In this document: in pieces, positions 1 to 10,620 of the stretch
How positions within the stretch are numbered: the first letter of the stretch is position 1
How the letters are laid out: every line of letters starts with the position of its first letter
From: Gammaproteobacteria bacterium
GTDB lineage: Bacteria; Pseudomonadota; Gammaproteobacteria; Steroidobacterales; Rariloculaceae
NCBI GenBank assembly: GCA_030834065.1
Contig: JAURFX010000004.1
Span: forward strand, 1-40,110
DNA length: 40,110 nt
Direction: 5' to 3'
The notes under the pieces: generated by a model
The model's database searches: none
Told to the model about the DNA's origin: nothing
The model's input: the letters and a program-made list of their open reading frames with translations, nothing else
Position numbers and translations under genes: made by a program

Positions 1-128
1 CAGGCGATAACATAAAAATGAAGGTAGAGTTGATTGCACCGATCGCAATGGAAGACGGTTTACGTTTTGCTATCCGTGAAGGCGGTAGAACCGTGGGCGC
101 AGGTGTGGTCTCAAAAATTATAGAGTAA
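1..128 (+). CDS. tuf: Elongation factor Tu, C-terminal end (truncated by window start)
   Basis: Frame 3 reads [41 protein letters not shown], the typical EF-Tu C-terminus; directly upstream of rpsJ. Confidence 0.95.
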
Positions 129-138
129 GCGGGAAAAC

Positions 139-453
139 ATGGCAGATAATCAAAAAATTAGAATAAGACTGAAAGCATTTGATCATGGTTTGATTGATAA
201 ATCGGCTAAGGAAATTGTTGATACAGCTAAAAGAACAGGTGCAACTGTTAGAGGTCCTATCCCACTACCTACAAAAACTGAGAGATTTACTGTACTAATT
301 TCTCCACATGTTGATAAAGATGCTAGAGATCAGTATGAAATACTTACACATAAGAGGTTGATGGACATTATACAACCGACCGATAAAACGGTCGATGCCC
401 TTATGAAGCTTGAGTTGCCTGCAGGTGTAGACGCTCAAATTAAATTAAATTAG
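139..453 (+). CDS. rpsJ: 30S ribosomal protein S10
   Basis: [45 protein letters not shown] is a conserved S10 sequence. Confidence 0.98.
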
Positions 454-463
454 TTTGATTATT

Positions 464-568
464 ACAGTTTAATTGATAAACTGTGCCACTTTCTGAGTAT
501 TCAGATGTGATATTAAGTTGCCTTTTTATAAATAAAGGGCTGAAGCTCTTACCCAACGAAGTAAGCGC
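464..568 (+). promoter_or_regulatory. Candidate structured leader upstream of rplC (four consecutive potential hairpins)
   Basis: Inverted repeats read directly: ACAGTTTA-ATTGA-TAAACTGT (464-484); TCTGA-GTAT-TCAGA (492-505); GCCTTTT...AAAGGGC with one G-T pair (520-540); CTTAC...GTAAG (548-565) with outer GC/GC. Confidence 0.5.
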
Positions 569-587
569 GGATAAATAGAGGATAAAA

Positions 588-1226
588 ATGAGCTTAGGAT
601 TAGTTGGCCGCAAATGCGGTATGACGAGAGTTTTCTTAGAAGACGGCATATCTGTTCCTGTTACAGTTTTGCACGTGATCCCAAATAAAATCACTCAACT
701 TAGAACTGATGAAACCGATGGCTATAATGCTGTTCAGGTTAGTTATGAATCTGGTAAAGCGAAAAATCTCAATAAATCTATCTCAGGACATATCACCAAA
801 GCAAACCTTCAATCTTGTTCATCGATGCATGAGTTTAGAGTAGAAAGCCTTGCAGAGCTCAATCTTGGCGATGAAATTAATCTGTCCCTCTTTGAATCTA
901 TAACTGCTGTTGATGTTTCTGGAAAAACTAGGGGTAAAGGATTTGCAGGTACTGTAAAAAGGCATAATTTTAGGATGCAAGATGCAACACATGGTAACTC
1001 AGTAAGTCATAGAGTTCCTGGTTCAATCGGGCAAAACCAGACACCTGGAAGAGTTTTTAAAGGAAAAAAAATGTCAGGTCATATGGGTAATGTTAATAGA
1101 ACATCTCCCAATCTTGAGGTTCACAAAATTGATTTAGAAAAAAACCTTTTATTAGTTAAAGGTTCAGTTCCTGGCGCCCCTGGAACAGAAGTAATTATTA
1201 CTCCATCTGTTAAAAGGAAATCTTAA
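588..1226 (+). CDS. rplC: 50S ribosomal protein L3
   Basis: [16 protein letters not shown]...[13 protein letters not shown]...[27 protein letters not shown]. Confidence 0.98.
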
Positions 1227-1828
1227 TGATTATTAAATCAAATACAGCCAAAGAGATTGAAGTTACCGATAAGGCTTTTGCTGTAGATTATAATGAATCT
1301 CTCGTTCATCAGGTTATCGTATCTGAATTCTCTAATAGACGTGCTGGAACAAAAGCGCAAAAAAATAGATCTGCGGTTTCAGGCGGTGGGAAGAAACCCT
1401 GGAAACAAAAAGGTACAGGCAGAGCAAGAGCTGGAACTACAAGATCAAACATATGGGTTGGTGGCGGTAGGGCATTTGCTGCTCAACCACGAGATCACTC
1501 TAAAAAAATTAATAAAAAAATGTATCTGGCTGCTATGAGATCAATCTTTTCAGAACTGTATAGGCAAGAAAGGTTAGTTATAGTTGATGAATTTCAGTTA
1601 GACACTCCAAAAACAAAGAATTTTGTTGAGAAAGTTAAATCTATCGGCATTTCAAATGCTCTTGTTATTGTTGAGTCATTTGATGAAAATCTATGGCTTT
1701 CAGCACGCAACCTTCATAGTTTTGAAGTTTGTTTAACTAGTCAAATTAATCCAATCTCGCTGATAGAATTTGAAAATGTAATTGTTACCTCCAGTGCGCT
1801 TAAAATTATTGAGGAGCGTTTGTCATGA
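1226..1828 (+). CDS. rplD: 50S ribosomal protein L4
   Basis: Conserved L4 motif AGTKAQKNRSAVSGGGKKPWKQKGTGRARAGTTRSNIWVGGG; position in S10 cluster. Confidence 0.98.
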   Translation: MIIKSNTAKEIEVTDKAFAVDYNESLVHQVIVSEFSNRRAGTKAQKNRSAVSGGGKKPWKQKGTGRARAGTTRSNIWVGGGRAFAAQPRDHSKKINKKMYLAAMRSIFSELYRQERLVIVDEFQLDTPKTKNFVEKVKSIGISNALVIVESFDENLWLSARNLHSFEVCLTSQINPISLIEFENVIVTSSALKIIEERLS

Positions 1829-10493: not shown

Positions 10494-10504
10494 GTAGGAT
10501 TGCA

Positions 10505-10618
10505 ATGAAAGTTAGAGCATCAGTAAAAAAAATATGTAGAAATTGTCGAATTATTAGACGTCATGGGGTACTTAGAGTAATTTGCTCTGACCCAAGACAC
10601 AAGCAAAGACAGGGATAA
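10505..10618 (+). CDS. rpmJ: 50S ribosomal protein L36 (below the ORF-track length cutoff)
   Basis: Own translation: [37 protein letters not shown]. Confidence 0.97.
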
Positions 10619-10620
10619 TT

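Follow-up and report, generated by a model that had tools for sequence, protein, structure and literature searches.

The 5′ end of the window, by which we mean the whole 40,110-nt stretch of DNA analysed here, carries tuf, rpsJ, a spacer, rplC and rplD, followed by the remaining S10-spc-alpha cluster (Table 1). The rpsJ-rplC spacer is the sole long non-coding gap within the ribosomal cluster, where other neighbours are separated by -5 to 29 nt; the 127-nt gap between secY and rpsM (10494-10620) encodes rpmJ (L36), which is absent from the list of open reading frames because of its 60-aa limit. The sequence-only reading of this DNA had singled out the 134-nt spacer against short gaps elsewhere and had placed rpsJ 10 nt behind tuf, and both descriptions are accurate. 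The tuf end (1-141) also starts another contig (L002, G000:C82), probably because a second tuf copy broke the assembly.

Table 1. Features of the tuf-rplD region (window coordinates)
Feature	Position	Strand	Details and basis
tuf (EF-Tu), 3′ end	1..128	+	truncated at contig start; stop TAA 126-128, 10 nt ahead of rpsJ
rpsJ (S10)	139..453	+	104-aa ORF; S10 homologues in relatives (tblastn)
rpsJ-rplC spacer with putative leader element	454..587	+	134 nt, non-coding
Hairpin 1 (predicted)	464..484	+	8 bp, 5-nt loop, ACAGTTTA-ATTGA-TAAACTGT; sequence, RNAfold
Hairpin 2 (predicted)	492..505	+	5 bp, 4-nt loop, TCTGA-GTAT-TCAGA; sequence, RNAfold
Hairpin P1	520..540	+	GCCTTTT...AAAGGGC, then TGAAGC; 7 pairs including one G-U; RNAfold, family comparison
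Hairpin-E-like, candidate L4-type element	545..568	+	best match of model R1; covariation in relatives
Shine-Dalgarno sequence of rplC, AGAGG	577..581	+	sequence; aligns with (A)GAGG of relatives; 8 nt 3′ of the hairpin
rplC (L3)	588..1226	+	212-aa ORF; first gene downstream of the element
rplD (L4), presumed regulator	1226..1828	+	200-aa ORF; 1-nt overlap with rplC; identity from sequence and gene order

The four inverted repeats originally described in the spacer are exact in their coordinates, and all four are returned by RNAfold. The most 3′ of them comprises a stem of 5 bp (548-552/561-565, CTTAC/GTAAG) closing the loop CCAACGAA (553-560), plus 2 bp (545-568 and 546-567) across a U x C mismatch; its 3′ end lies 8 nt from the Shine-Dalgarno sequence and 19 nt from the ATG of rplC. 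In the minimum-energy fold, UUAAGUU (513-519) pairs with the first rplC codons (about 591-598), a predicted interaction that would enclose P1, the 545-568 hairpin and the Shine-Dalgarno sequence. The folding energy of 454-600 is -31.3, compared with -25.5 +/- 3.1 for shuffled sequences (z -1.88; 7 of 200 shuffles equal or better). As z is only -1.9, structure alone is weak evidence, and it is the comparison with relatives that decides.

Conservation of the rplC-proximal hairpin

A short or unstructured spacer in close relatives had been named as an observation that would speak against a leader. Sixteen members of the window's family have spacers longer than that of the window (213-426 nt), and these bear hairpins; one further member, with an 18-nt gap, is the exception. 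Before rplC these 16 genomes carry GCCAG...CTGGC, TGAAG, a second hairpin, GCGGAT and an AGG-type Shine-Dalgarno sequence. The window follows this plan with GCCTTTT...AAAGGGC, TGAAGC, CTTAC-CCAACGAA-GTAAG and CGCGGATAAATAGAGG. Its hairpin P1 matches the family's GCCAG...CTGGC-TGAAG in place and flank, and pairs 4 and 5, which are U-G and U-A in the window and A-U and G-C in the family, keep their pairing. Relatives also possess longer GC-rich hairpins near the place of hairpin 1, a correspondence of position only.

Elsewhere in the order, outside this family, the second hairpin is more sharply defined and takes the form stem-C-CAAUCGAA-G-stem. This order-wide conserved hairpin has an 8-pair stem and a CAAUCGAA-like loop and lies ~20-30 nt ahead of rplC, with the loop starting 28-39 nt upstream of the gene in most spacers; the loop of the window starts 36 nt ahead of the ATG, matching the sister families. 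Among 63 spacers from the other families, 37 contain the hairpin, where dinucleotide shuffles give an expectation of 0.27, and its rate in shuffles of the window spacer is 0.00. The loop of the window, CCAACGAA, has C at 554, a position at which A is invariant in 64 relatives. Loops within the window's own family are divergent, yielding a weak match at best and in some members only.

Alignment of the spacers, proposed together with the original candidate, revealed strong covariation among the relatives' hairpins. In an ungapped alignment of 64 sites, pairing is seen in 95.1% of cells compared with 70.7% after shuffling, double changes number 100 against 23.8 in shuffles, and slid controls reach 26-47% pairing. 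Even the loop-closing pair covaries (59 C-G and 5 U-A among the 64). Because these sites had been chosen with a pairing rule, the count was repeated on 57 sites chosen by loop sequence only: pairs 2-7 were formed in 53-57 of the 57, exceeding all 1000 shuffles. The same covariation was found in a separate class-level set of 18 sequences from outside the order.

Covariance model R1 was built from 64 hairpins, none of them from E. coli, the window or its family. Within the 40-kb window it scores highest at 541-575 on the + strand, with 19.0 bits and an E of 6.3e-4, ahead of a runner-up at 12.6 bits. Across all 1.17 Mb of the genome this segment again comes first: its E is 0.018, that of the runner-up 2.6. 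By its R1 ranking the window hairpin fits the hairpin-E class (loop CAAUCGWA-like), with one deviating position among the invariant loop positions. R2, a class-level model independent of R1, missed the window element. Hairpins that arose by chance in AT-rich filler, with no conserved element, would be compatible with a z of only -1.9 for the whole spacer; we nevertheless consider them extremely unlikely, given that an independent model ranks the element first in the genome at a syntenic position and that the hairpin has a rate of 0.00 in shuffles of this spacer.

Within a set of 274 genomes of the class, 45 contained a site matching R1 with an E of 0.05 or lower. In 20 of the 30 best loci, representing 13 families, the match falls between rpsJ and rplC, just ahead of rplC (one of the 20, G301, was located via rplC coordinates). 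When one genome per family was sampled with most known positives omitted, 4 more hairpins appeared in 79 loci, none of them in the E. coli-like place before rpsJ. The element is widespread yet patchy across the class. The term 'relocated' used in the sequence-only reading holds relative to E. coli, but at least 13 families have the element before rplC, a position common in the order. Rfam 15 returned nothing above the gathering threshold in the window and only tRNAs in the loci of 20 relatives, which is uninformative since the E. coli S10 leader was also unmatched.

One of the sampled families is probably Woeseiaceae, as its spacers agree letter for letter with records bearing that name (L028 = L111, L033 = L167). 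Two tandem hairpin-E-like elements precede rplC in 25 spacers, mostly from this Woeseiaceae-like family (L028, L031, L033, L048, L066, L070, L080, several of L111-L132, and L167-L169), with loops roughly 72-96 nt and 28-30 nt upstream of rplC. This tandem arrangement suggests dual binding sites. Some Woeseiaceae-like family members with smaller genomes (L106 and L110, from G107 and G180) have ~355-nt rpsJ-rplC spacers of conserved sequence with no hairpin of the hairpin-E class, possibly another type of leader.

Relation to the E. coli S10 leader and to 23S rRNA

The S10 leader of E. coli, ahead of rpsJ, contains CCCAUCAAUCGUAAUGGG, in our reading the upper portion of the attenuator hairpin (stem E). 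Of all sites in 40 kb of E. coli sequence, CCCAUCAAUCGUAAUGGG is the top match of R2 (14.9 bits, E 0.12; next 11.5) and also of R1 (11.2 bits, E 0.26), the next chance match of R1 being nearly equal. In addition, the ten-letter loop UCAAUCGUAA is identical in E. coli and several members of the class. This match, top-ranked but weak, suggests that the hairpin next to rplC and hairpin E of E. coli are members of one class. The upper hairpin E, CCCAU-CAAUCGUA-AUGGG, shares its loop and stem architecture with the order-wide element; further likenesses are a second hairpin upstream, an operon under control that includes rplC-rplD and, in the relatives, a TATAAT promoter ahead of the leader. P1 occupies a place equivalent to that of E. 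coli hairpin D and is conserved within the family, and the two are likened by position alone. In contrast to the E. coli leader, the window element is situated between rpsJ and rplC, not before rpsJ; its hairpin is not followed by a U-run, so that there is no attenuator at this site, and has the Shine-Dalgarno sequence within 8 nt; its loop is CCAACGAA, and the window lacks a recognisable promoter.

In E. coli, L4 binds the S10 leader and acts on both transcription and translation, its 23S site competing for it (PMC10931766). Stem D is required for L4 control and stem E is the attenuator hairpin; L4 separately affects rpsJ translation (PMC10578931). The structured ribosomal-protein leader that the sequence-only reading had placed between rpsJ and rplC is supported by the conserved rplC-proximal hairpin, and its proposed ligand, L4, remains our best guess because this hairpin appears to fall in the class of E. 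coli hairpin E. Alternatively, a conserved leader of this kind might be bound by L3, L2 or another protein of the operon, as several ribosomal proteins serve as regulators across lineages (PMC7247131) and the first controlled gene is rplC, which encodes L3. We judge this quite unlikely, since the hairpin class appears to be shared with the L4-binding E. coli leader and the loop UCAAUCGUAA is letter-identical there and in several class members. A candidate L4 leader over rplC and rplD has likewise been described in Archaeoglobi, although it is archaeal (PMC7247131). The rpsJ motif of Peptostreptococcaceae is, as here, a structured 5′ UTR of the S10 operon, but it lies upstream of rpsJ and in Firmicutes (PMC11109978).

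By eye, TGAAGC...GCGGATA resembles helix 20 of 23S rRNA, which had raised the idea that the window element mimics 23S; local alignment ruled this out. Against the whole E. coli 16S and 23S rRNAs, the best match of the window is in 16S, with z 0, and a best rRNA match at 23S 290-365 that beats shuffles occurs in 1 of 16 spacers of the family and 1 of 63 of the order. The organism's own 23S was sought in its incomplete genome and gave no match.

The rpsJ-rplC spacers of Pseudomonas and relatives contain no hairpin of the hairpin-E class. In 31 of 31 Pseudomonas-type spacers, the best rRNA match overlaps 290-365 of E. coli 23S (median z 9.4); these spacers were picked for carrying the 23S-like string GCCCCGTAC, and the figure thus describes the GCCCCGTAC-bearing group, not all spacers. 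For the cases listed, the match falls within 278-346 of E. coli 23S, as exemplified by GGGTGAAAGCCCCGTACAC compared with GGGTGACAGCCCCGTACAC of 23S. Loci of this kind (L032, L043, L046, L047 and others), in Pseudomonas, Stutzerimonas and Cellvibrio-like genomes, have spacers of about 80-110 nt that nearly copy the stretch ~280-343 of E. coli 23S, and no Rfam family covers this form. The region ~295-343 of E. coli 23S is, we presume, the domain I region of L4 and L24, and hence the L4 site. The Pseudomonas-type spacer looks like a second, unrelated form of L4 control at the same place. L4 would be the ligand common to the domain I segment and the leaders of the window, its family and its order, which have no sequence match to that segment.

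Transcription of the region and a model for control by L4

The sequence-only reading had proposed a promoter at 455-482 (TTGATT-16-TAAACT). The letters are present, but they agree with the consensus at only 8 of 12 positions, and a consensus scan of 300-700 on the + strand detected no promoter-like site; we regard this promoter as unsupported. Among the relatives, 14 of 16 family members have TATAAT in the spacer, where 0.48 would be expected, as do 47 of 61 genomes from the rest of the order (4.4 expected); the motif stands 145-416 nt ahead of rplC. Their S10 operon transcript thus probably starts inside the rpsJ-rplC spacer. TATAAT was also looked for in the window spacer, which is shorter than those of the relatives, and is absent. 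The suggestion that the S10 operon starts at rplC is supported for the relatives but not for the window, where we infer that the region is probably read from the upstream tuf-rpsJ transcript.

The missing TATAAT, the altered invariant loop base and a spacer of 134 nt, compared with 213-426 nt in all but one of the measured family members, could also point to a degenerate remnant: genome reduction in the window species would have removed the promoter and some of the leader, leaving a hairpin without regulatory function. Such decay appears unlikely to us: the 134-nt spacer has been retained although gaps in the cluster stay under 30 nt, the stems of P1 and 545-568 still pair, with the differences in P1 keeping the pairing, and the distance to the ATG is preserved.

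A scan of 300-700 for terminators found no terminator-like site, and GGATAAATAGAGG, not a U-run, directly follows the hairpin. In some relatives, L009 and L125 for example, terminator-like hairpins with T-runs were seen by eye just 5′ of the element. Together with the NusA-dependent attenuation by L4 in E. coli (PMC10931766), they would fit a leader of the same kind on which L4 acts mainly on transcription, by stabilising a paused RNA polymerase and causing premature termination. For the window we hold this to be improbable, given the lack of a terminator-like site and of U residues after the hairpin. Translational repression is favoured because there is neither U-run nor terminator and because a protein bound to the hairpin would overlap the footprint of the initiating 30S subunit.

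On the basis of these observations, we propose, with a probability of roughly 0.7, that the 3′ half of the spacer (~512-590) is an autoregulatory element of the same type as the L4-bound S10 leader of E. coli, situated ahead of rplC and acting by translational repression. The proposal draws on the conserved position and loop, the covarying stem of the relatives, the first rank in the genome and the apparent membership in the hairpin-E class; L4 as the ligand and translational rather than transcriptional control are its inferred parts. Free L4, the product of the nearby downstream rplD, would bind the 545-568 hairpin, probably assisted by P1, and would then block the access of ribosomes to the Shine-Dalgarno sequence of rplC. 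Synthesis of L3, L4 and the products of translationally coupled downstream genes would fall, coupling being expected because several genes of the cluster overlap by 1-5 nt. In this model, rpsJ would escape L4 control and follow the tuf transcript.

Placement before rplC and possible L4 control in Gammaproteobacteria

Whereas the L4 leader of the E. coli S10 operon is known, its placement before rplC appears to be new. We found no description of an rplC-proximal L4 element in Gammaproteobacteria in the literature searched, key subscription papers aside, and an earlier description is possible. For a broader proposal the odds seem about even: in many Gammaproteobacteria that are not E. coli-like, a translational operator for L4 feedback would lie in the rpsJ-rplC spacer. 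It would have at least two forms unrelated to each other, namely hairpin-E, sometimes doubled, and a long copy of a segment of 23S domain I in Pseudomonas and relatives. S10 would then escape feedback by L4, and the arrangement seen in E. coli may be derived. No Rfam model exists for the hairpin-E form or the 23S-like form before rplC. The data suggest that the element has been overlooked because it lies one gene further downstream, and that L4 control extends well past the relatives of E. coli. Its natural variants, with a single hairpin, a double hairpin or the 23S-like form, allow the recognition of unlike RNAs by one ribosomal protein to be tested.
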